DNA of 42,311 bases from Clostridia bacterium (lineage in GTDB: Bacteria > Bacillota > Clostridia > TANB77 > CAG-465), in NCBI GenBank assembly GCA_028684095.1, contig JAQUGQ010000013.1:1-42311 (forward strand). Reading direction: 5' to 3'. Below are positions 462 to 34,026 of this stretch, piece after piece. The position numbers and the translations under genes are program-made. The notes beneath the pieces were generated by a model. The model saw only the letters and a program-made list of their open reading frames with translations. It did not search any database and was not told the DNA's origin. Every line of letters starts with the position of its first letter. The stretch's first letter is position 1.

Positions 462-499
462 TCGTAGTTAAAAAGCATTCTCTTTTAATGTAAAATGTT

Positions 500-532
500 G
501 CAACATATTTTAATAATATGTTGCATTTTTTT
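500..532 (+). terminator. rho-independent terminator
   Basis: GCAACATATT (500-509) pairs with AATATGTTGC (515-524) around a 5-nt loop. A run of seven T follows (526-532). It ends the remnant at 123-461, and its right arm doubles as the -35 region of the next promoter. Confidence 0.85.
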
Positions 533-575: not shown

Positions 576-3500
576 ATGTTATATAATGATGCATCAAAAC
601 ATAAAAAACGAGAGGAATGGAAAATTTTGAAAGATAGATTAAACCAAATATTCAGAGATGTAAAAAATAATTATTCTACTATATCTGAAACATACAAAAT
701 ACTTGAAAAAACATTTGAAATGGGTCTTTTAATTCATCCTGCAGGTCAGTGGTTACTTGATAATATGTATATAATAAATCAAGAATATTCTGATATATTA
801 GAACATAAAGTTAATGTTATAAACAAAAGATTACCAACAATTAAAACAAAAGATGGCTCAAGACATACAATTATATATTTTATAGCTTATGAACTTATAG
901 AGGAGAATAAAGGATATACAGATCAAAATTATATAGCTGATTCTTTAAGACACCATCAAAAAGTAGCATATTTAACATCAGAAGAATTAAATTTGTTTCC
1001 TTTAATGCTTCGTATTTCTATAATTAAGTTTATATCAGGAATTTGCTTTAATATAGCAAATTCACAGCTTCAAAAAATCGAGGTTGAAAAAATAATATCT
1101 ACAGATTTAAAATATGATGATACTAAAAAAATAAAAAATATAATATATCGTGATTTGAAAATATTTAAATCAGATATTTCAAATATTGAAAAATTAAAGG
1201 ATACAAATACTTCATTTGTTGAGTACTTAGCATCAAGACTAAAAGGATTTGGAGAAGGCGGAGAAAAGTATTACAAAATACTTAATGATGAAGCTGAAAA
1301 GATAGGTTTTACAGTTGAAGAAGCTATTGTAAAAGAACATATGGAAATGGCAAAAACAACTGATTACATGGGTAAAGCTATACATGGCCTTAAACAATTA
1401 CAAGGACTAAACTTTAGAGAAATATTTGAAAGTGTAAATAAAATAGATGAAACTCTGAAACAAGATTATACTAATGAATTTGTAAAATGTGACTACAAAA
1501 CAAAAGCAAGATACAGAAATAGAGTAATAAAGTTATCAAAAAAGTATGCTTTATCTGAGACATATGTAGCAAAAAAAGCTGTTGAATGTTCAGTTAAATA
1601 TCAAAAACATGTTGGATTCTTTTTATCTGGTGATGAAAAATATTTTCTTAAAAAAGAGCTTGATAAATCTTATACAGGAGACATTATATATAATAATATA
1701 ATTAAACCAATAAAACCATTTTTTTATGTATTTTTGATTTTTACTTTTGCACTATTAATAACAATACTCGCAAAAGATCTATTCATTACTAATAATCCTA
1801 TATACAAGTGGATGTATTATATATTTACTTATATTTTTGCTATTGAAGTAGTAGAAAAATTAATGAGCTATTTTATTAGAAAAATTGTTCCACCTAAAAT
1901 ATTACCAAGATTTGATTTTGCTAAAACAATAGACAAACAATATTCTACATATATAGTAATGCCCACTGTAATTTCTTCTTATGATAAAATCGATATTATG
2001 ATAAGAAAAATGGAAGTAACGTATCTTGCTAACAGATCTGAAAATATGTATTATATGTTACTTGGTGATTGTTTATCTGCGGACAAAAAAGTAATTGAAC
2101 AAGATGAAAAATTTTTTAAGTATGCTAAAGAAAAACTTGATATTTTAAATAAAAAATACAAATCAGAGAATAAATTATTTAACTTTATATATAGAAAACG
2201 TATATTTAGTAAAGCTGAAAATGCATATATGGGTTGGGAAAGAAAAAGAGGAGGACTTAAGCATTTTAATGAATTAGTTCTTGGAACTATGACAAAAGAG
2301 AAACTAAACGAGGTAATGTACTTAGCATATGATGATATTTGCAACACTAAATATGCAATAACAATAGATGAAGATACAGAACTTTCTTTAAATACTGCTA
2401 AAGATTTAGTTGCTATTATTGCTCATCCACTAAATACTCCTAAACTTTCTAAAGACGGTAGAATAGTAAAAAGTGGTCATGGTTTAATTCAACCAGCAGT
2501 TGGTTTAGATATCGAATCTGCAAATAAAAGTATATTTTCAAAAATATTTGGAGGTTTTGGAGGATTAGATATATATACAACAGCTGTATCTAATACGTAT
2601 CAAGATGTATTCAATGAAGCTATATTTTGTGGAAAAGGTATATATGATATAGCATTATTTGAAAAATTATTATCTAATGAAATACCAGAAAACTTAGTAC
2701 TTAGTCATGATTTACTAGAAGGATCATATATGAGAACGGGCTTAGCATCAGATATACAAGTTCAAGATGGTTTTCCTAATAATTTTGTTGCATATATGAA
2801 CAGAAATCACAGATGGTATAGAGGAGATATGCAAATTGTTAAATGGTTGTTTAGTCCTAAGTCACCTCTTAACTTCTTATCAAAATGGAAAATATTTGAT
2901 AATTTAAGAAGACCTTTATTAGATGTATTTGCGATTTTAATTATGTTAACTTCGTTATTTGTATCACAAGAAATGTTTGTAAGATCAGTATTAGTAGTGT
3001 TTTCTGTAATTAACTTTGGATATTTATTAGCGCTACTTGATGCATTTATATTTGGTAGAACAAAACATACTAAAGATTTATTATACATTCCTATAATTCA
3101 TGGTGTAAGTGCTACCATACTTACTATGACATTTGACTTTTTAACACTTCCATATAGAGCATATACATCAATAGATGCTTTTGTAATATCTTTATATAGA
3201 ATGTGTATATCTAAAAAACATTTACTAGAATGGACAACTGCTGAAATATTAGAAAAAGAAGCTAAAAGTAAATTAATATATTATTATTACAATATGATAC
3301 CAAATTTAGTAGTCGCTGCTATTATATTACTTAACATAATTTGTATAGACAATATGTTATTTGTATCAGAGTTTCAATTATTTATTGCAATTTCATTTAT
3401 AATTACTCCTTTGCTTGCATATCTACTTGGAAAAAATCATTTATTTGGTAGAAAGAGAAGATTAGATAAAATGCAAGATAATGAGTTGTTAGATATAGCT

Positions 3501-6176
3501 AAAAGGACATGGTATTTTTTTGAACTTATGATGACACCAGTTAATAACTATTTACCTACTGACAATTATCAAGAAAATAGAAGATACAAAATTGCAAATA
3601 GAACTTCTTCTACAAATATAGGTTTTGGAATTCTTGCAATAATTAATGCTTATGATCTTAAATTTATAAAATTATCTGAATGTTTAGAGAAATTAAGTAA
3701 TGTAATGGGAACTATAAATAAATTAGAAAAATGGAATGGACATTTGTTAAATTGGTATAATATAAAGACACTGGAACCACTAAGACCTAGATTTATATCT
3801 ACAGTTGATAGCGGTAACTTTGTAGCATGTATATATATATTAAAAGAATTTCTAATTGAACAAAAACAGTCAAATAATGATAGAGATAAGAATATAATAA
3901 CAGAAAATATTATAAATAGTTGTAACAATATTATAGAAACTACAGACTTTACTAAGTTATATGATATGTCAAGAAATCTATTTACAATTGGGTATGCTCA
4001 AGATGAAGGTAAGATAGTAGATAGTTATTATGATATGCTTATGTCAGAAAATAGAATAGCTAGTTTGATTGCTATAGCTTCAAGACAAGTTACTTCAAAG
4101 CATTGGTTTGCACTATCTAGAAATTTAATTAATGTAGATGGATACAAAGGTTTAGTATCATGGAGCGGAACATCATTTGAATATTTCATGCCATATCTAT
4201 TTAATAAATCATATGAACATACATTAGTTGATCAGTCTTTATTTTTTGCTAAATACAGTCAAAGAAAGCATGCAAAAGCAAATAATATTCCTTGGGGAAT
4301 CTCTGAATCAGCATATGCTGTTAAAGATAATGATCTAAATTATCAATATAAAGCTTTTGGTATACCATGGCTTGGACTTAAAAGAGGTTTAAATGATTAT
4401 TTAGTTATATCACCTTATGCATCAATGTTAATGCTTGAGTATGCACCTCAAGAAGTATATAAAAATATAGTTAAACTTAAAAAATTAGGATCATATGGAT
4501 CATTCGGATTTTATGAATCCATAGATTATACAAAATCACATTTAGATAATAAAGAATATGAAGTAGTTAAGACATATATGGCACATCATCAAGGGATGGT
4601 ATTAACTTCAATTAATAATTATATAAATTCTGGAATAATTAAAAATCGTTTTCATGCAAATCCTAATATTGAAGCTTGTGAAATATTACTAAAAGAAAGA
4701 GAAAAAATAAAAGCAAATCTAAAAAAAGATAAGAAACTTTCTGATAAGGCATTTAAACAAAAAAATTCAGATAAATATACAATGTATTTATCTAGTAAAC
4801 ATTCAACTAAGAAAAGTATTACTCCTAATACTGATATGCAAATAGCAATTCTTAAGGGTAAAAGTTTATCTACAATTTTAACAAGTTGTGGATCAAGTTA
4901 TCTTAAATATAGAGAAAAAATAGTTAATAGACAAAAGTTTAAAGATTTATATTCAAGTGGAAATTATGTTTTCTTAACAGATGAATTTACAGATAAAACA
5001 TTTTCAACTTCTGATACAGATATTTTAAACGATTCAAACAGCTATATAAACAAAACAAACTTTGTTTCAACATTAAGTAGTGCTGAGTATTACATTGAAT
5101 GTGGTAATTTGGAATCAACAACAACAGTTTTTTTATCTCCTGAATATAATATAGAAGTAAGAAAAGTTAGTGTATATAACAATAGTAATATAAAGAGAGA
5201 AGTTAGAATAAATACATATGTTGAACCAGCAATGACAGATTACATGACTAATGTAGTACATCCTTCGTTTAATAGTTTACAAATTGAAACATATTATGAT
5301 GAAACTTTAGATACATTAGTTGCAAGTAAAAGACTTAAAAAAGATGATGATCAAGAATTATATGTATTTGCAAAACTAATAGGAATTGATTTAATAAAAG
5401 ATGTAGAAACTGAAAAATCTAAAATAGATTTTTCAACTTCATGTTCATATAATGCTTTTGATAGTAAAGTATCTAAATATCCATTGTGGCCAGTACTTTC
5501 ATATAGAGCAAAAATCATATTAACCGAACATGAAAGACAAGATTTTTATTATATTTTAGGTGCAACGGATTCTAAATATAAAATGTCAAATGCTATTATT
5601 AATTTAACTCCAGATAGTTTGAAAAAACAATATAAATTATCATGTGAATTAAACACAGTAGTATCTAGATATTTGAAATTAATACCAGGAAAAGCATATT
5701 CATATAACAAAATAATAAGAGAACTACTATTTGATAAAAAGGAATTGGATGTTAAATATTGGGATACTAGTATAAACCAACCAATGCTTTGGAAATATTC
5801 TATATCGGGTGATTTTCCAATATTACTTGTTAATATAGATAACATTGAAAGTGTCGGAATTATTGATGAAGTAATAGATTTTATGGATTATGTTAAAAAC
5901 AGAAAGATAGATATAGATATTATAATACTTGTGAGTAATAACAAGTACAGTGATAAAATGTATGAATATGTAAAGTTAGCAATACATAATGCTACATATA
6001 TGGATTATACTAAAGGTAATATATATTTATTTGATATTAATAATCTAGATAAAAAAGATATTGATTTATTTAAATTTATATGTAGAAAAGAAATATCATC
6101 TATTGATAGTTTTTTATCAACTGAACAAAAAAATATTGTGATTGACGAAGATAATGAAATAATAGAAGAGGTGTAG
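576..6176 (+). CDS. cyclic beta-1,2-glucan synthase-like protein, GT84 plus glycoamylase-like part
   Basis: This 1866-aa membrane protein matches the first two thirds of NdvB/ChvB/Cgs synthases, which polymerise UDP-glucose into beta-1,2-glucan and cyclise it. Residues 1-370 hold the N-terminal region. Membrane segments lie near 382-403, 412-430 and several between 780 and 955. The GT84 glycosyltransferase domain between them shows an I-D-E-D-T acidic motif (~597-601), V-L-S-H-D-L-L-E-G (~708) and R-N-H-R-W-Y-R-G-D-M-Q (~742). The glycoamylase-like domain (GH189 in recent work) follows, with A-N-R-T-S-S-T-N-I-G, S-W-S-G-T-S-F-E-Y, P-W-G-I-S-E-S-A, and M-A-H-H-Q-G-M near 1334. A beta-sandwich follows. 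Full-length homologues are about 2800 aa and end in a GH94 domain; here that domain is the next gene. No good ribosome site precedes the ATG, but TAA 558-560 rules out an earlier start. Family assignment is firm; cyclising activity is inferred. Confidence 0.9.
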   Translation: MLYNDASKHKKREEWKILKDRLNQIFRDVKNNYSTISETYKILEKTFEMGLLIHPAGQWLLDNMYIINQEYSDILEHKVNVINKRLPTIKTKDGSRHTIIYFIAYELIEENKGYTDQNYIADSLRHHQKVAYLTSEELNLFPLMLRISIIKFISGICFNIANSQLQKIEVEKIISTDLKYDDTKKIKNIIYRDLKIFKSDISNIEKLKDTNTSFVEYLASRLKGFGEGGEKYYKILNDEAEKIGFTVEEAIVKEHMEMAKTTDYMGKAIHGLKQLQGLNFREIFESVNKIDETLKQDYTNEFVKCDYKTKARYRNRVIKLSKKYALSETYVAKKAVECSVKYQKHVGFFLSGDEKYFLKKELDKSYTGDIIYNNIIKPIKPFFYVFLIFTFALLITILAKDLFITNNPIYKWMYYIFTYIFAIEVVEKLMSYFIRKIVPPKILPRFDFAKTIDKQYSTYIVMPTVISSYDKIDIMIRKMEVTYLANRSENMYYMLLGDCLSADKKVIEQDEKFFKYAKEKLDILNKKYKSENKLFNFIYRKRIFSKAENAYMGWERKRGGLKHFNELVLGTMTKEKLNEVMYLAYDDICNTKYAITIDEDTELSLNTAKDLVAIIAHPLNTPKLSKDGRIVKSGHGLIQPAVGLDIESANKSIFSKIFGGFGGLDIYTTAVSNTYQDVFNEAIFCGKGIYDIALFEKLLSNEIPENLVLSHDLLEGSYMRTGLASDIQVQDGFPNNFVAYMNRNHRWYRGDMQIVKWLFSPKSPLNFLSKWKIFDNLRRPLLDVFAILIMLTSLFVSQEMFVRSVLVVFSVINFGYLLALLDAFIFGRTKHTKDLLYIPIIHGVSATILTMTFDFLTLPYRAYTSIDAFVISLYRMCISKKHLLEWTTAEILEKEAKSKLIYYYYNMIPNLVVAAIILLNIICIDNMLFVSEFQLFIAISFIITPLLAYLLGKNHLFGRKRRLDKMQDNELLDIAKRTWYFFELMMTPVNNYLPTDNYQENRRYKIANRTSSTNIGFGILAIINAYDLKFIKLSECLEKLSNVMGTINKLEKWNGHLLNWYNIKTLEPLRPRFISTVDSGNFVACIYILKEFLIEQKQSNNDRDKNIITENIINSCNNIIETTDFTKLYDMSRNLFTIGYAQDEGKIVDSYYDMLMSENRIASLIAIASRQVTSKHWFALSRNLINVDGYKGLVSWSGTSFEYFMPYLFNKSYEHTLVDQSLFFAKYSQRKHAKANNIPWGISESAYAVKDNDLNYQYKAFGIPWLGLKRGLNDYLVISPYASMLMLEYAPQEVYKNIVKLKKLGSYGSFGFYESIDYTKSHLDNKEYEVVKTYMAHHQGMVLTSINNYINSGIIKNRFHANPNIEACEILLKEREKIKANLKKDKKLSDKAFKQKNSDKYTMYLSSKHSTKKSITPNTDMQIAILKGKSLSTILTSCGSSYLKYREKIVNRQKFKDLYSSGNYVFLTDEFTDKTFSTSDTDILNDSNSYINKTNFVSTLSSAEYYIECGNLESTTTVFLSPEYNIEVRKVSVYNNSNIKREVRINTYVEPAMTDYMTNVVHPSFNSLQIETYYDETLDTLVASKRLKKDDDQELYVFAKLIGIDLIKDVETEKSKIDFSTSCSYNAFDSKVSKYPLWPVLSYRAKIILTEHERQDFYYILGATDSKYKMSNAIINLTPDSLKKQYKLSCELNTVVSRYLKLIPGKAYSYNKIIRELLFDKKELDVKYWDTSINQPMLWKYSISGDFPILLVNIDNIESVGIIDEVIDFMDYVKNRKIDIDIIILVSNNKYSDKMYEYVKLAIHNATYMDYTKGNIYLFDINNLDKKDIDLFKFICRKEISSIDSFLSTEQKNIVIDEDNEIIEEV

Positions 6177-6182
6177 AAAAGT

Positions 6183-8276
6183 ATGAAACATAAGACGAAA
6201 AATGAAGATTTTGATTTAATAGCTTTTAATTCATACGGTGGGTTTTCTAAAGATGGAAATGAGTACCATATATTAAACACAAAAACACCTCTACCTTGGT
6301 GTAATGTGCTTGCTAATGAAAATTTTGGAACAATAATATCAAATTATGGAACTATATATACATATTTTAGAAATAGTAGAGAAAATAAATTAACAAATTG
6401 GTGTAATGACTGGACAAATACAGTACCTGGTGAAAAATTTAAAGGTATATTTGATGAAGGATATAACTTGAATTATGGTTTTGGATATGTTAAAGTAAAC
6501 CAAATTGATGATAATATTAGAAAAGATATGACAATATTTATACCTATGGAAGATAATTTAAAAGTACAATATATTGAACTTGAAAATTTATCAAATATAG
6601 AAAAAAAAGTTTGTATAACATATACTATATCTCCAGTTCTAGGTGTAAGTAGTGAAATTGATTCAGAAAATGTAATCTCAAAACAGGAATTTGACTCAAT
6701 GCTTTTAAAAAATCCATACAGTAAAGATTTTTCTACATGTGTATCATATGTTACTGTTTTAGATTATTCTAATAAAGAAGATTTTGATGTAACATATGAT
6801 ATAGTAGATTATGTAACTACTATTAACGTTACAATTAATCCAAATGAAAAGATTAGTTTTAATATACTATTTGGTAGTTATGAAGCAGATAAAGAACATT
6901 TAGAATATGTATTAAACATAAGAAATAAATATTCAGTTAAGGAAAAATTTGATAAAATATGTTATAATACATTTTCATATTGGAAGTCAAAAGTAAAGAG
7001 AAATATAAATACAGGTGATGAATATATAAATATAATGGCAAATGGTTGGCTGTTATATCAAACTATAAGTTGTAGATTATTTGCTAAAAGTGGTTTTTAT
7101 CAATCTGGTGGAGCAATAGGATATAGAGATCAACTTCAAGATACGATGGCCCTTATTTCATCTTGGCCAGAGAAAACAAGAAGTCAGATTATACTTCATT
7201 CAAGTAAACAATTTGAAAAAGGAGATGTACTTCATTGGTGGCACGATCATACAAATGCAGGAATAAAAACATATTTTAGTGATGACTATTTATGGCTTGC
7301 ATATGTATTATGTGAATATATATCAAAAACTTCAGATATATCAATATTAGATGTAGAAACAACATATTTACAAAACAAAGATATGGGAAATCAAAGAGAA
7401 CTATATGAAATATTTGAATCATCAGAAATAAAAGATAGTATATATAATCATGCTAAAAAAAGTATAACGTATGGACTATCTAGAATAAATGAAAAAAATG
7501 GACTTTTAGATATAGGTGATGGCGATTGGAATGATGGATTTAGTAGTATAAGAGGTCAGTCGGTTTGGCTTACACTATTTATGATTGATTTATTGGCTAA
7601 ATTCATATCAGTTGCAACTATTAAAGAAGATAACGAAATGATGCAAATATGTGAAAAGTATAGACACATATTAAAAAATAGTGTCGTTGCAAGTGCCTGG
7701 GAAGGAGAACATTTTGTTAGAGCTTTTTTTGAAAATGGTGAAGTCCTAGGTTCATCTACTAACACAGAATGTAAAATAGATTTAATATCTCAAGCATGGG
7801 CAGCTATAGCATTAAAAGGATATCCTGATATGAGAGAAGAAATTAATTTAGCATTAGAAAGTGCAGATAAATTTTTAGTAGATAAGGAACATCAAATAGT
7901 AAAACTATTGTATCCACCTTTTGATAAACCAAAAAACAACCCTGGATATATAAAAGCATATGTACCAGGTACGAGAGAAAATGGTGGTCAATATACACAT
8001 GCATCTACTTGGCTTGCTAAGGCATATTTTGAAATAAGTGAAAAAGAAAAAGGAATGGAAATATTAAAATATATAAATCCTATATATCATTCTGATTGTA
8101 AAGAAAAAGCTGATATATATATGGTTGAACCATATGTTATGGCAGCGGATGTATATGCAAATGATGAGCATATGGGTAGAGGTGGTTGGACTTGGTACAC
8201 TGGTTCATCAGCTTGGACATATAAAGTAATTGAAGATGAATTTTTATGTAAAAAGGAAGAAAAATTATTAAAATAG
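6183..8276 (+). CDS. GH94-type (glycosyltransferase 36) domain protein, split C-terminal part of the glucan synthase
   Basis: This 697-aa protein corresponds to the C-terminal GH94 domain of cyclic beta-1,2-glucan synthases. It begins with the conserved N-S-Y-G-G-F-S-K-D-G-N-E-Y and T-P-L-P-W-C-N-V pattern and shows G-A-I-G-Y-R-D-Q-L-Q-D. It carries the GH94 catalytic signature G-D-G-D-W-N-D near residues 445-451, whose aspartate is the general acid in family members, and later R-E-N-G-G-Q-Y-T-H. In the family this domain phosphorolyses beta-1,2-glucan chains and sets chain length. It has no membrane segment or signal peptide. The gene is in the same frame as its upstream neighbour, separated only by TAG (6174-6176) and two codons. 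An AGAGGTG ribosome site inside the upstream 3' end sits 9 nt before the ATG, so translation is probably coupled and the two products may work as one complex. Confidence 0.88.
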   Translation: MKHKTKNEDFDLIAFNSYGGFSKDGNEYHILNTKTPLPWCNVLANENFGTIISNYGTIYTYFRNSRENKLTNWCNDWTNTVPGEKFKGIFDEGYNLNYGFGYVKVNQIDDNIRKDMTIFIPMEDNLKVQYIELENLSNIEKKVCITYTISPVLGVSSEIDSENVISKQEFDSMLLKNPYSKDFSTCVSYVTVLDYSNKEDFDVTYDIVDYVTTINVTINPNEKISFNILFGSYEADKEHLEYVLNIRNKYSVKEKFDKICYNTFSYWKSKVKRNINTGDEYINIMANGWLLYQTISCRLFAKSGFYQSGGAIGYRDQLQDTMALISSWPEKTRSQIILHSSKQFEKGDVLHWWHDHTNAGIKTYFSDDYLWLAYVLCEYISKTSDISILDVETTYLQNKDMGNQRELYEIFESSEIKDSIYNHAKKSITYGLSRINEKNGLLDIGDGDWNDGFSSIRGQSVWLTLFMIDLLAKFISVATIKEDNEMMQICEKYRHILKNSVVASAWEGEHFVRAFFENGEVLGSSTNTECKIDLISQAWAAIALKGYPDMREEINLALESADKFLVDKEHQIVKLLYPPFDKPKNNPGYIKAYVPGTRENGGQYTHASTWLAKAYFEISEKEKGMEILKYINPIYHSDCKEKADIYMVEPYVMAADVYANDEHMGRGGWTWYTGSSAWTYKVIEDEFLCKKEEKLLK

Positions 8277-8297
8277 AATATTTAGTATAATACATAT

Positions 8298-8338
8298 AAA
8301 AACAAGTTAAACTCTAATTTGAAGTTTAACTTGTTTTT
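8298..8338 (+). terminator. rho-independent terminator
   Basis: A 15-bp perfect stem, AAAAACAAGTTAAAC (8298-8312) with GTTTAACTTGTTTTT (8324-8338), ends in a T-run. It closes the two-gene glucan operon. Confidence 0.9.
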
Positions 8339-8456
8339 ATTGAGTAATTATACTGAATTGATTTCTATAATTAGAATAAATGACTGTGCATATTATATTA
8401 GTCAATAAACTTAAAAAGCGAATCTTCGATATCGCTAGAATATTTTTAAAAAAGTA

Positions 8457-9949: not shown

Positions 9950-11233
9950 ATGAACGTAAAATTAGAAAGAAAAGAAAATTCAAAAGTTGAATTAGAATTC
10001 AACTTAACAAAGGAAGAGTTTAATGCTAGATTAGAAAAGGTGTTTGTAAAAAATGCGAAAAATTTCAATGTTCCAGGATTTAGACCAGGAAAAGCACCAA
10101 GAAATATTATAGAAAAAATGTATGGCGAGGAAAGTTTAAACTATTCTGTAATTGAAGATACAGTAGATGAAGACTTTAAAACTGCAGTAGAAGAAAATAA
10201 TTTAGAAGTGGTTTCTAAACCAGAACTAAATGTAGTACAAATTGGTAGAGATATTGATACTATATATACAGTTACTGTTTTTGTAAAACCTGAAGCTATT
10301 GTTAAACAATATAAAGGATTAGAAGTTGCTAAATTTGAGAAAAAAGTAACTGATGAAGATATTGATAAAGACATAGAAGTTACAAGAGAAAAAAATTCTA
10401 GATCTGTAACTGTTGACAATAGACCATTAGAAAATGGAGATATTTCAAACATTGATTTTGAAGGTTTCGATAATGGAGTAGCTTTTGAAGGCGGAAAAGG
10501 TGAAAAATTTGACTTAACTATAGGTAAAGGACAATTTATTCCAGGATTTGAAGAAAAACTTATTGGTATGAATATAGGTGAAACTAAAGATATTGAAGTA
10601 TCTTTCCCTGCTGATTATCATATGGATACTTTAGCTGGAAAACCAGTTGTATTTAAAGTTACATTAAATTCTATATCTAAAAAAGAATTACCAGCTTTAG
10701 ATGATGAATTTGCACGCGATATATCTGAATTTGAAACATTAAATGATTACAAACAATCAGTAAAAGAAAAATTAGAGAAAAAAGTTATAGCTGAAAATAA
10801 AGCATCTAAAGAAATTGCAGTGTTTGATAAATTATTAGAAAATACTGAAGTTGTAGTGCCAGAAGCTATGATTGAAGAACAAGTAGAAAATTTGGTTAAA
10901 CAAACAGAACAAGAATTATCATATCAAGGAATGACAATAGATACTTATTGCCAATATCTTGGAGTAGATAAAGATGTTATGAAAGCTAACTTTAAAGTAC
11001 AAGCTGAAAAAGATGTAAAATTTAGATTAGCTATAGAAGCAGTAATTAAACTTGAAAACATTGAAGTAACACAGGAAGATATAAATACTAAAATTGATGA
11101 ATTAGTTAAACAATATGGAAAAGAAGAAGAAAATAATTTTAAAAATAATGAAAATATTAAACAATATTTAACTGAACAATTAAAACAAGAAAAGTTAATT
11201 AATTTAATTGTTGAAAGTAGTATAGAAAAATAA
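9950..11233 (+). CDS. tig: trigger factor, ribosome-associated chaperone / peptidyl-prolyl isomerase
   Basis: This 427-aa protein has the usual trigger-factor length and order. The ribosome-binding N-domain carries the signature N-V-P-G-F-R-P-G-K-A-P (~residues 39-49, family signature G-F-R-x-G-x-x-P). An FKBP-like isomerase domain lies around 150-245 (G-K-G-Q-F-I-P-G-F-E-E), and a charged helical C-terminal chaperone domain follows. It binds near the ribosome exit tunnel and shields nascent chains. The ribosome site is GGAGGAAT before the ATG. It is the first gene of the common tig-clpP-clpX cluster, with 41 nt to clpP. Confidence 0.97.
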   Translation: MNVKLERKENSKVELEFNLTKEEFNARLEKVFVKNAKNFNVPGFRPGKAPRNIIEKMYGEESLNYSVIEDTVDEDFKTAVEENNLEVVSKPELNVVQIGRDIDTIYTVTVFVKPEAIVKQYKGLEVAKFEKKVTDEDIDKDIEVTREKNSRSVTVDNRPLENGDISNIDFEGFDNGVAFEGGKGEKFDLTIGKGQFIPGFEEKLIGMNIGETKDIEVSFPADYHMDTLAGKPVVFKVTLNSISKKELPALDDEFARDISEFETLNDYKQSVKEKLEKKVIAENKASKEIAVFDKLLENTEVVVPEAMIEEQVENLVKQTEQELSYQGMTIDTYCQYLGVDKDVMKANFKVQAEKDVKFRLAIEAVIKLENIEVTQEDINTKIDELVKQYGKEEENNFKNNENIKQYLTEQLKQEKLINLIVESSIEK

Positions 11234-11274
11234 TTATATTTGTTATTATTTAAATATATAAGGGGGAAAATATT

Positions 11275-11883
11275 ATGCATAATAGTTTAGTACCAATGGT
11301 AATAGAACAAACAAGTAAAGGTGAAAGATCTTATGACATTTATTCAAGACTTTTAAAAGAAAGAATAATATTTTTATCAGATGAAGTTAACGACGTTACA
11401 GCATCTTTAACAATAGCACAATTACTATTTTTAGATGCAGAAGATCCAGGTAAAGATATATTTTTATATATTAATAGTCCCGGTGGAAGTGTTACAGCTG
11501 GTATGGGTATATTTGATACAATGAATTATATAAAATCAGATGTATGTACAATATGTGTTGGTATGGCAGCAAGTATGGGAGCATTTTTACTTACAGCAGG
11601 AGCTAAAGGTAAAAGATATGCACTTCCAAACTCTACAATAATGATACATCAACCATTAGGTGGTTATCAAGGTCAAGCTAGTGATATGAAAATACATGCA
11701 GAACACATAATTAAAACAAGAGCTAAATTAAATAGAATTTTAAGTGAGAGAACTGGAAAATCTTTAGAAGAAATTGAAAAAGATACAGATAGAGATAATT
11801 TCTTAGATTCTTATGAAGCAAAAAGCTATGGACTAATAGATGAGGTAATGAGTAATATTAACGATATAACTAAGGAGAAATAA
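11275..11883 (+). CDS. clpP: ATP-dependent Clp protease proteolytic subunit
   Basis: This 202-aa serine peptidase assembles into a tetradecameric chamber. The catalytic serine lies in G-M-A-A-S-M-G (~98) and the histidine in M-I-H-Q-P (~125). The oxyanion/substrate strand N-S-P-G-G-S-V is present, and the aspartate is in the D-R-D-N-F-L segment (~172). AAGGGGG precedes the ATG. clpX follows after a single nucleotide, so translational coupling with its ATPase partner is expected. Confidence 0.97.
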
Positions 11884-11884
11884 T

Positions 11885-13165
11885 ATGGCTAAAAAAAGAA
11901 GAGATAATGGTGACGGCTACGATAGTATGGTATTTTGTTCGTTTTGTGGTAAATTAAAACAAGAAGCTAAAAAATTAATTGCTGGTCCAGATGGACTTTT
12001 AATATGCGATGAATGTGTAGAATTATGCCATAAAATAATAGTAGAAAATGAAGAATCTGAGTATATTGAAGATAATGATAAAACAATGTCATCTCTTAAA
12101 ATGACTGAGTTATATCCACCAGAAAAAATAAAAGAAGTACTAGATGAATATATAATAGGACAAGATTTTGCTAAAAAAGTTTTATCGGTAGCAGTATATA
12201 ACCACTATAAAAGAATACAAAACTCATCTAAAATAGATGATGTAGAAATGCAAAAAAGTAATGTACTTCTTTTAGGTCCTACTGGTTGTGGTAAAACATT
12301 GCTTGCACAAACACTTGCTAAAGTATTACATGTGCCTTTTGCAATAGCAGATGCTACTACACTTACTGAAGCAGGATATGTTGGAGAAGACGTAGAAAAT
12401 ATTTTACTTAGACTTATTCAAGCAGCAGATTATGATATAACAAAAGCAGAAAAAGGTATCATATATATAGATGAGTTAGATAAAATATCTAGAAAATCTG
12501 AAAATACTTCTATTACACGTGATGTAAGTGGTGAAGGTGTACAACAAGCATTACTTAAAATAATAGAAGGAACAGTTGCTAGTGTTCCACCACAAGGTGG
12601 AAGAAAACACCCTCAACAAGAATTTATTAAAATAGATACAACTAATATTCTATTTATATGTGCAGGAGCTTTTGAAGGATTAGATAAAATAATAATAGAT
12701 AGAGTTGGTACAAAATCAATGGGATTTGGTGCTAAGATTGAAGCTAAAAAAGATATTGATTTAGGTAAAATATACTCACAAGTACAATCATACGATATTA
12801 TAAAATTTGGTTTAATACCAGAACTTGTAGGTCGTATACCAGTAATAACATATGTAAGTCAATTAGATAGAGCATCATTAATAGATATATTATCTAAACC
12901 AAAAAATGCACTTTTAAAACAATATAAGAAGCTACTTAAAATGGATAATGTTGATCTAAGTTTTGATAGAGAAGCATTAGAGCTTATTGTAGATAAGGCA
13001 ATAGAGAGAAAAACTGGTGCTAGAGGACTTCGTTCTATTATAGAAGATGTTATGGTAGATTCAATGTTTAAAATACCATCAGATAAGTTAATTAGAAGTT
13101 GTCATATAACAAAAGATGTTGTAGAAAAGAAATCAGAACCAATTTACGAATACAGAAGAATATAA
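11885..13165 (+). CDS. clpX: ClpX unfoldase subunit of ClpXP
   Basis: This 426-aa AAA+ ATPase recognises, unfolds and feeds substrates to ClpP. The N-terminal zinc-binding domain shows C-S-F-C (18-21) and C-D-E-C (41-44). Walker A is G-P-T-G-C-G-K-T (~131-138), Walker B is I-I-Y-I-D-E-L-D-K, and pore-loop and sensor segments (E-G-V-Q-Q-A-L-L-K) follow. The ClpP-docking tripeptide, usually I/L/V-G-F, reads M-G-F here (S-M-G-F-G-A-K, ~278). The start overlaps the end of clpP by context (TAATATG). Confidence 0.97.
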
Positions 13166-30956: not shown

Positions 30957-31058
30957 TTTATTGTATTATTACAACGAAATTTAACATATTTACTTTATTT
31001 TTGTCTTAAAATATAGTATAATTATTGTCATATAAAAAAAAAATTAGGAGTGATTTTA

Positions 31059-31985
31059 TTGAGTATGAAGGTAGGTATACCAAGAGCCCTATTGTATTTT
31101 AAATATAGAGACATGTGGATTAATTTTTTTAGGAAATTAGAAATAGATATAGTTATAAGTCCACAAACAAATAGAGAAATATTAAATAATGGACTTAAAT
31201 ATTCTATAGATGAATCATGTTTGTCATCTAAGGTGTTTATGGGTCATGTAGAGTATTTAAGAGACAAATGTGATCTTATATTTATTCCAAGAGTAGCTAA
31301 AACAGGTAAAAAACAAGAACTTTGTGTTAAGTTTTTTGGACTTTCTGATATTGTAAATAATACTTTTTCAGAAGTCAAAATCTTAGATTATAATCATGAT
31401 GTAGATAAAAGACAAAGTGAAATGAAGGCATATTTGGATTTGGGATTAAAATTAGGTAAATCGCCTATGCAAATTCTAAAAGCATATACATATGCTTTTA
31501 AATGTAAATTAGAAAAAGACAAAAAACGTTTAGATAAACAAAATGAACTACTACTTTTTGATGATAAATTAAAGGTTTTAATAGTATCTCATTCATATAA
31601 CACATATGATGAATATATAGGTGGACCTGTAGTAAATTATTTAAAAGAATTAAATGTTACCCCTATATTTGCAGATATAGTTGATAAAAAGCTAGCTAAT
31701 AAAGAGGCTAATAATATATCGGAAAAAATTTATTGGGCATATAATAGAGAATTATTAGGTGGAATTGAAGTATATAAAGATAGAGTTGATGGCATTATAC
31801 TTATTACAACTTTCCCATGTGGTCCAGATTCTTTGGCAAACGAAATGATAACGAAAAGAGTAAAAAACAAACCTATAATTACAATAATATTAGATGAACA
31901 AGATGGAAGTGCTGGTATGATTACTAGAATTGAAAGTTTCATAGATATATTGCAAATAAGAAAAGCTAGAAAAATAGTTAAATAA
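31059..31985 (+). CDS. DUF2229-type, acyl-CoA dehydratase activase-related protein
   Basis: This protein (~308 aa) matches the DUF2229 segment of giant (R)-2-hydroxyacyl-CoA dehydratase activase-like proteins: it starts K-V-G-I-P-R-A-L-L-Y-F and includes D-E-S-C-L-S-S-K-V-F-M-G-H, F-I-P-R-V and D-E-Q-D-G-S-A-G-M. In many bacteria DUF2229, the dehydratase-like domain and the ATPase activase are fused in one ~1400-aa chain; here they are three consecutive genes. AGGAG is 8 nt before TTG 31059, 14 nt before ATG 31065 and overlaps GTG 31050, so TTG is the best start. The function is probably ATP-driven electron transfer through Fe-S clusters; the substrate is unknown. Confidence 0.8.
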   Translation: MSMKVGIPRALLYFKYRDMWINFFRKLEIDIVISPQTNREILNNGLKYSIDESCLSSKVFMGHVEYLRDKCDLIFIPRVAKTGKKQELCVKFFGLSDIVNNTFSEVKILDYNHDVDKRQSEMKAYLDLGLKLGKSPMQILKAYTYAFKCKLEKDKKRLDKQNELLLFDDKLKVLIVSHSYNTYDEYIGGPVVNYLKELNVTPIFADIVDKKLANKEANNISEKIYWAYNRELLGGIEVYKDRVDGIILITTFPCGPDSLANEMITKRVKNKPIITIILDEQDGSAGMITRIESFIDILQIRKARKIVK

Positions 31986-31997
31986 AGGAGAATAATT

Positions 31998-33071
31998 ATG
32001 AGTAAGCAGAAAACAGCATGTTTTCCACAAATAGCAAACTATAGTATACCGGTAGATATGTATGTGAAAAATGTATTAGATATGAAAACAATTACTTGTC
32101 CTATGACTACTAAAAAAACTTTAGAGTTAGGTAGTAAACATAGTCCTGATTACGTTTGTACACCTTTTAAATATTCACTAGGAAACTATATTGAAGCTAT
32201 TGAAATAGGTGCAGATACTTTAATAATACCTGCTATTGGATGTAGATTAGGTTACTATGATGAAGTTCAAAAAACAATACTTGAAGACTTAGGATATAAA
32301 ATTAATATGGTAAATTTATTTGAACATGGAAATAATATCATGGGAATATATAAATTATGCAAAACGTACAATCCTAAATTAAAGATAAAAAAATTTATCA
32401 AAACGTTATATTTGGTATCTAAAACAGTAATATATATGGATATAATGGAAGACTATATAAGGAAAAATATTGGATTTGAAAAAGAAGATGGAAAAATGGA
32501 AAAAATATATCAGTTGTTTTTACAGGGTATAAAAAAATCTACTAGAGTTAAACACGTAAAAAAACTTTACGAAAAGTATTTTGCGATGCTAAAAGAGGTT
32601 GAAATAGATAAGCCTGAAAATCCTATAAGGGTTGGAATAGTTGGTGATTTATATACAATATTGGAACCTTTTGGAAATTGTAATATAGAAAAGCATTTAG
32701 CTAAAAAAGGAATAGAAATTAATAGACCTATGACATTAACTCATATGTTTGGAGAACTACAAAACGAAAAATTATTACTTAAACAAAGTGGAAAATATCT
32801 AAAATATGCAATAGGCGGAAATGCTACTGATAGTGTAGCTAAAGCAAAAATGATGGCAGAAAATAATATTGATGGTATAATTCATATTAAGGCTGCTTCT
32901 TGTACACCAGAAATTACAGCTATGAGTGCTTTGCAAAATATTTCAAATGATTATAAAGTACCAATACTTTACTTTACATTTGATACTGAAACTAGTGAAA
33001 CGGGTGTTTTAACTAGAATAGAAGCTTTTCATGATATGTTAATCATGAAAGACTTAAAGGAAGTGAGATAA
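31998..33071 (+). CDS. 2-hydroxyacyl-CoA dehydratase-like (HgdB/D-type) Fe-S protein
   Basis: This 357-aa protein belongs to the HGD-D / BcrB-C fold. It has cysteines in typical cluster-ligand contexts: T-I-T-C-P-M-T, Y-V-C-T-P-F-K-Y-S-L-G-N, A-I-G-C-R-L-G-Y and K-A-A-S-C-T-P-E-I-T-A. R-V-G-I-V-G-D-L-Y opens the second Rossmann-like half. Such proteins either dehydrate 2-hydroxyacyl-CoAs or, as in double-cubane cluster proteins, reduce small molecules after activation. AAAGGAG precedes the ATG, 12 nt behind the DUF2229 gene. The activase gene follows after 3 nt. Confidence 0.8.
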   Translation: MSKQKTACFPQIANYSIPVDMYVKNVLDMKTITCPMTTKKTLELGSKHSPDYVCTPFKYSLGNYIEAIEIGADTLIIPAIGCRLGYYDEVQKTILEDLGYKINMVNLFEHGNNIMGIYKLCKTYNPKLKIKKFIKTLYLVSKTVIYMDIMEDYIRKNIGFEKEDGKMEKIYQLFLQGIKKSTRVKHVKKLYEKYFAMLKEVEIDKPENPIRVGIVGDLYTILEPFGNCNIEKHLAKKGIEINRPMTLTHMFGELQNEKLLLKQSGKYLKYAIGGNATDSVAKAKMMAENNIDGIIHIKAASCTPEITAMSALQNISNDYKVPILYFTFDTETSETGVLTRIEAFHDMLIMKDLKEVR

Positions 33072-33074
33072 TTT

Positions 33075-34026
33075 ATGAAAAAAGCATATTTAGGTGTAGA
33101 TATAGGATCAATTTCTACGAAGGCAGCAGTTATTGATGAAAATAATAAAGTTATTGCTAGTAAATATATATGGACTAGCCGGAAACCCTGCACAAGCTGT
33201 AAAAATTTTATTAAAGGATATAGAAAAAACAATTGATAATCAATATAAAATAGTGAACGTAGGAACAACAGGTTCTGCTAGAAAACTTATAGGTACTATG
33301 CTTAATGCAAAAGTAGTGAAAAATGAAATAACTGCTCATGCAATAGGTACATTATCTATTGTTCCAGATGCTAGAACAATTATTGAAATTGGTGGACAAG
33401 ATTCAAAAATAATAATAATTGAAGATGGTATTGTAACAGATTATGCTATGAATACTTTATGTGCAGCTGGTACAGGTTCATTTTTATCAAGTCAAGCTAA
33501 AAGACTTGAATTAGATATAGAAGAATTTTCTGAAATGGCTTGTAGTAGTGATAATCCAACTAAAATAGCAGCAAGATGTACAGTTTTTGCTGAAAGTGAT
33601 CTTGTACACAAAGCACAAATTGGACATAAAAAAGAAGATATAGTAGCAGGACTTTGTAGAGCAGTAGTTCATAACTATTTGAACAATGTTGGTAAAGGAA
33701 AGTCAATAAAAAATCCGGTTGTATTTCAAGGTGGTGTAAGCAAAAATAAAGGGGTTGTACGTGAATTTGAAAGAGAACTTAATACCAAGGTATATGTTGA
33801 TGAAAATGGACATATAATGGGTGCTATAGGTGTTGCTATACTTGCGAAGCAGCAAAAGGATGAAATAGATTTTTCATTTGATATTACTGATATAGAATTT
33901 GAAACAAAAGGTATAGAATGTGATAAATGTGCTAATAACTGTGAAATAATATGTGTTTATAAGGATAAAATACTTGTTGATGCATGGGGAAATAAATGTG
34001 ATAGAGGTAGAGCTAAAGTAAAGTAA
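33075..34026 (+). pseudogene. acyl-CoA dehydratase activase (BadF/BadG/HgdC ATPase), one-base frameshift
   Basis: ATG 33075 starts the family N-terminus, G-V-D-I-G-S-I-S-T-K (ATP phosphate loop). The frame should continue Y-I-W-T-A-G-N-P-A-Q-A, but one extra base within 33174-33177 throws it off. The other frame then runs intact to TAA 34024-34026, with G-G-Q-D-S-K-I-I and the cluster-ligand blocks C-A-A-G-T-G-S-F and A-R-C-T-V-F-A-E-S. The C-terminal extension C-D-K-C-A-N-N-C-E-I-I-C is cysteine-rich. Restored length is 316 aa. Activases are [4Fe-4S] homodimers that use ATP hydrolysis to push electrons onto the dehydratase encoded just upstream. A sequence error would make this an ordinary intact gene; otherwise an alternative start at ATG 33133 would lack the phosphate loop. 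Confidence 0.82.

Follow-up and report, generated by a model that had tools for sequence, protein, structure and literature searches.

Probable convergent fission of the cyclic glucan synthase gene at a disordered linker in Clostridia

Members of the cyclic glucan synthase (CGS) class have been described as single chains (PMC10901819, PMC10834661, PMC11842490). Here we describe a clostridial CGS encoded by two adjacent genes, and consider it likely that convergent gene fission has produced a CGS of two subunits, the halves of which probably dock again. Judged from alignments and trees, the same linker, between the Rossmann-fold-like (RFL) subdomain and the GP2 domain, appears to have been cut independently in four or more lineages of Clostridia, unless many re-fusions are assumed. 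All the domains concerned are already known and the novelty lies in their division between two genes; a search of the open-access literature yielded no description of a split CGS.

Two genes encode the domains of one CGS

The window, the whole 42,311-nucleotide stretch of Clostridia bacterium DNA that was analysed, carries the one CGS of its genome as two open reading frames, termed here genes A and B (Table 1). An initial sequence-only reading had held that these ORFs (1866 and 697 aa) lie in one frame with a TAG and two codons between them, and that an AGAGGTG motif is correctly placed for re-initiation at gene B; both statements were confirmed from the sequence. The 1866 aa of ORF A are counted from the ATG at 576, and 1849 aa would result from the TTG at 627, which is preceded by GAGAGGA, falls in the start column of most relatives and is probably the true start. 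A terminator scan detected no terminator-like site on the plus strand between the two genes, and assigned the hairpin downstream of gene B, the stem of which is a near-perfect palindrome, to the minus strand.

Table 1. Features of the CGS gene pair, in window positions
Feature	Position	Strand	Details
Terminator-like hairpin upstream of gene A	499..525	+	
Gene A, membrane synthase/cyclase subunit	627..6176	+	ORF opens at ATG 576; likely start TTG 627
GT84 active-site Asp codons	2367..2711	+	A residues 598, 600, 712 = Atu D624, D626, D739
GT84 primer Tyr A667	2574-2576	+	= Atu Y694
Glycoamylase-like/GH189 cyclization domain core	4026..4664	+	PF10091, A residues 1151-1363
GP1, first GH94 supersandwich domain, kept in gene A	4842..5561	+	PF06165, A residues 1423-1662
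RFL subdomain	5679..6119	+	A residue ~1702 onward, matches Atu 1847-2012
Disordered RFL-GP2 linker with the cut	6120..6203	+	pLDDT <50 at model residues 470-497; hypervariable in alignment
Shine-Dalgarno AGAGGTG for gene B	6167..6173	+	9 nt before ATG 6183, in the end of gene A
TAG stop of gene A	6174..6176	+	Two codons, then ATG 6183 of gene B
Gene B, GP2-GP3, GH94 phosphorylase subunit without GP1	6183..8276	+	697 aa, ATG 6183
GH94 general acid Asp B451	7533-7535	+	= Atu D2528 (alignment)
Hairpin with T-rich flanks after gene B	8296..8340	.	Likely terminator of the A-B unit

Residues 28-1085 and 1116-1786 of A align to the Agrobacterium Cgs (8rf0/8rf9) with an E-value of 8e-228, and A also matches the GH189 domain of TiCGS from Thermoanaerobacter italicus (8wy1; E 2e-122). 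B matches the C-terminus of the Agrobacterium enzyme (E 3e-123), and its Pfam matches are to the second supersandwich and the GH94 catalytic barrel (PF17167, E 1.4e-98); in an NCBIfam scan of the gene pair no CGS model reached its cut-off. The GT84 residues D598, D600, D712 and Y667 are conserved in A, and the GH189 catalytic glutamates A1158 and A1244 align with Atu E1300 and E1386. In the alignment underlying the tree, the GT84 aspartates, the priming tyrosine, the GH189 glutamate pair, the HH motif and the GH94 aspartate were invariant in 13 of 13 family rows checked.

The order of domains in A followed by B is that of the Agrobacterium Cgs, with which the GT84 Asp triad, the priming Tyr, the GH189 Glu pair and the GH94 acid are shared (PMC10901819). 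The cyclization domain of TiCGS, the founding member of GH189 and itself from the Bacillota (PMC10834661), matches that of A, in which its catalytic E1356/E1442 and its HH pair are conserved. However, the Agrobacterium Cgs is one chain of 2,818 aa and in TiCGS, too, GT, GH189 and C-terminal GH94 are described as parts of a single polypeptide (PMC10834661), whereas the window has two genes, and hence two chains, separated between RFL (ending at Atu 2012) and GP2.

The CGS pair is closely followed by trigger factor, ClpP and ClpX genes arranged in tandem (window 9950-13165). A search of phage records gave no match. At 31050-34026 three consecutive ORFs have DUF2229, HGD-D and BadF/BcrA-type ATPase domains, which are often united on a single large protein of the acyl-CoA dehydratase activase-like kind, and these ORFs are possibly another split gene in the same genome.

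Position of the cut

In the cryo-EM structure of Cgs the C-terminal half consists of GP1 (1536-1846), RFL (1847-2012), GP2 and GP3 (PMC10901819). In the alignments residue 1701 of A corresponds to Atu 1846, and residue 10 of B to Atu 2042; gene A therefore carries NTD-GT84-GH189-GP1-RFL and gene B GP2-GP3. The break had been placed at the outset between the glycoamylase-like part and GH94, but since gene A still holds the PF06165 domain and an RFL-like domain, the true site is about 500 residues further on, at the RFL/GP2 junction inside the phosphorylase half.

In our alignment this junction is a hypervariable, gap-rich linker in all fused homologues. We modeled GP1-RFL-GP2-GP3 as one read-through chain, with the TAG read as Q, from an alignment of 21 fused relatives; since it was folded as a single chain with fused homologues, the resulting model (pLDDT 78, pTM 0.79) cannot demonstrate the binding of separate chains. 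It superposes on residues 1540-2778 of the Agrobacterium Cgs over 1113 residues at 3.5 Å, and its stretch at the junction is the longest internal one with pLDDT <50.

A proposed two-subunit synthase

We propose that A would synthesize a tyrosine-primed glucan from UDP-glucose and then cyclize it, while B would be translated by coupled re-initiation from the ribosome-binding site within the last codons of A and would dock on GP1/RFL, rebuilding the rigid C-terminal half. The half so rebuilt would bind the growing glucan across RFL-GP2-GP3 and trim it by phosphorolysis. In the Agrobacterium enzyme the glucan passes along RFL, GP2 and GP3 on its way to the phosphorylase site, and truncation at 1846 abolishes activity whereas the D2528A change does not, i.e. 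the phosphorylase aspartate is dispensable (PMC10901819). Given these properties, A would presumably not function on its own, and the loss of B should be costly, which fits its retention beside A. That chain-length control should be the sole role of B seems doubtful, since the C-terminal domain of the Agrobacterium Cgs is also a scaffold (PMC10901819).

Alternatively, B might be a free cytosolic beta-1,2-oligoglucan phosphorylase uncoupled from A, which alone would make linear or cyclic glucan. The complete, cellobiose-phosphorylase-like core of B, a supersandwich and an alpha/alpha barrel aligning to 3qde over 636 residues at 2.8 Å, would suit such a role, but B scores 416 bits to the GH94 part of CGSs against at most 169 bits to stand-alone phosphorylases. 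Its GH94 fold and likely substrate class are common to the 1,2-beta-oligoglucan phosphorylases Lin1839 and LpSOGP; these, however, are soluble, stand-alone enzymes of higher activity whose single chain includes GP1, GP2 and GP3 (PMC3960220, PMC10901819), whereas GP1 of the window lies in A, where both it and RFL are kept under constraint. The dispensability of phosphorylase activity in Agrobacterium (PMC10901819) also accords with uncoupling, as does a single f5 MAG (G060, locus L044) in which A and B are about 6.6 kb apart, although B adjoins A in almost all genomes. On balance we regard a free phosphorylase as unlikely, and favor the two-subunit synthase. At L044 several unrelated ORFs, one with Listeria-Bacteroides repeats, lie between the halves, and translational coupling is thus not universal.

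Conservation of the split within the family

No fused single gene was found in the 36 family genomes searched, which span 5 genera: in 36 of 36 the GH94 catalytic part lay outside any fused ORF. Thus close relatives with an intact single gene, named by the sequence-only reading as the sign of a nonsense mutation or error, did not come to light; together with the two ORFs of the window, this identifies a two-subunit variant rather than a standard CGS member. In 34 of these genomes a single main ORF of ~670-720 aa encodes the separate GH94, the extra breaks in B being confined to G001 and G030. The loci concerned (L007 and L058, respectively) have additional frameshifts in B, and in A too for G001, which look like recent decay or MAG errors; appearing as frameshifts, they were not accepted as evolved cuts.

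At the 29 readable A-B junctions the genes mostly either overlap or directly adjoin one another (-53 to +37 nt, with one at +129), the gap or overlap usually being <55 nt. The stop of A is in the frame of B at 9 of the 29, as chance predicts, so that a same-frame stop is not diagnostic; the in-frame TAG, to which weight had initially been given, is incidental, the sister species having TAA there and most other relatives being out of frame. Upstream of B, 29/29 relatives have a Shine-Dalgarno match of 5 nt or longer, as against 2% of background windows, a contrast somewhat inflated by the choice of the B start partly on its Shine-Dalgarno score. Between the window and the sister species, the only one returned when the contig was scanned for matches, dN/dS is about 0.12-0.16 for both genes (0.081/0.696 for A and 0.098/0.620 for B), and both are under purifying selection. 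The initial proposal of an evolved gene fission with re-initiation is supported by the family-wide split and the conserved ribosome-binding site, with its break point revised as above.

These observations leave very little probability to a recent nonsense mutation, a sequencing error or a decaying pseudogene, for which the in-frame TAG only two codons before an ATG, and the real frameshifts elsewhere in these genes of related MAGs, might otherwise speak. Every family member is split at the same place, in mostly different frames, a comparison that rules out a recent nonsense mutation as the cause; both genes are constrained, the ribosome-binding site is conserved, and the same architecture recurs in another genus, in genomes that are single contigs. 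Programmed stop-codon readthrough or recoding that also yields a fused protein, to which the frame maintained across the stop in the window and its sister G002 would be open, is hardly credible and was rejected on the same comparison, since a conserved readthrough could not join A to B in the 20/29 relatives where the two overlap or differ in frame, the stop varies among TAG, TAA and TGA, and a good ribosome-binding site and start follow it.

Recurrence of the cut in other lineages

Sampling of the order, class and phylum gave a single ORF of ~2,600-3,000 aa as the normal state in most Clostridia and the wider phylum, in keeping with the one chain of ~2800 aa earlier ascribed to homologues. 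The RFL/GP2 cut was also encountered in f5, of the same order as the window's family; in f60, with a TAATG overlap; in f15, in 9/9 matching genomes of 3 genera; and in f26, where nearly all CGS-carrying genomes of genus g166 have a separate ORF of ~810-830 aa. Several of the split g166 genomes are single contigs of 4.5-6.4 Mb, which removes assembly error as an explanation.

Splits at RFL/GP2 occupy four or five separate positions in the trees. The AU test under LG+G4 rejected one fission that all split lineages would share by inheritance or transfer (p 2.2e-6), and likewise a single clade of f1, f5 and f60 (p 1.6e-36). A clade of f1 and f5 was not rejected (p 0.22) and is present in the mixture-model tree with a support of 80, and the two were therefore counted as one fission event. 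With cuts placed at random along 2,560 residues, the probability of 4 out of 9 falling in the 60-residue linker is 3e-5, which is only a rough yardstick as both linker length and event count are approximate. As in bacterial gene fission generally, tandem, overlapping or nearly abutting genes have here replaced a fused ancestor; unlike the general case, a single inter-domain linker of one large enzyme has been cut several times, and whole families have kept the cut. The same site may have been cut again because the linker is disordered, the folds flanking it are self-contained and the cost would be low once B has its own start.

Cuts at other sites were also observed. Independent fissions at or within RFL in f2 (L040-L042) and f157 (L090) leave a GH94 protein that is larger, at about 905-935 aa, and L053 and L077 are cut inside GP2. 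L039 and L043 (f5, genus g9) have a three-gene CGS, in which the RFL/GP2 cut is accompanied by a second, out-of-frame cut in the transmembrane region of A (query residues ~790/830). Compared between these loci, both pieces of A have a dN/dS of about 0.07-0.09 and hence still look selected; L043 has a C-terminally truncated gene B.

Implications

More tentatively, B might be a dissociable regulator that sets ring size, or the choice of linear or cyclic beta-1,2-glucan, through its abundance or its attachment to the RFL face of A, and the cut might have been repeatedly selected for this reason; we consider this improbable. The split CGSs would clearly illustrate how gene fission can converge on a single disordered linker, and are a warning to annotators that such genes should not be labelled truncated. 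The phosphorylase of CGSs can lose its catalysis but the domain itself cannot be lost. Its repeated natural separation at one linker, which would allow B to be supplied or withheld in trans, offers a ready-made test of scaffold versus chain-length roles and bears on why a dispensable phosphorylase is kept on the chain.
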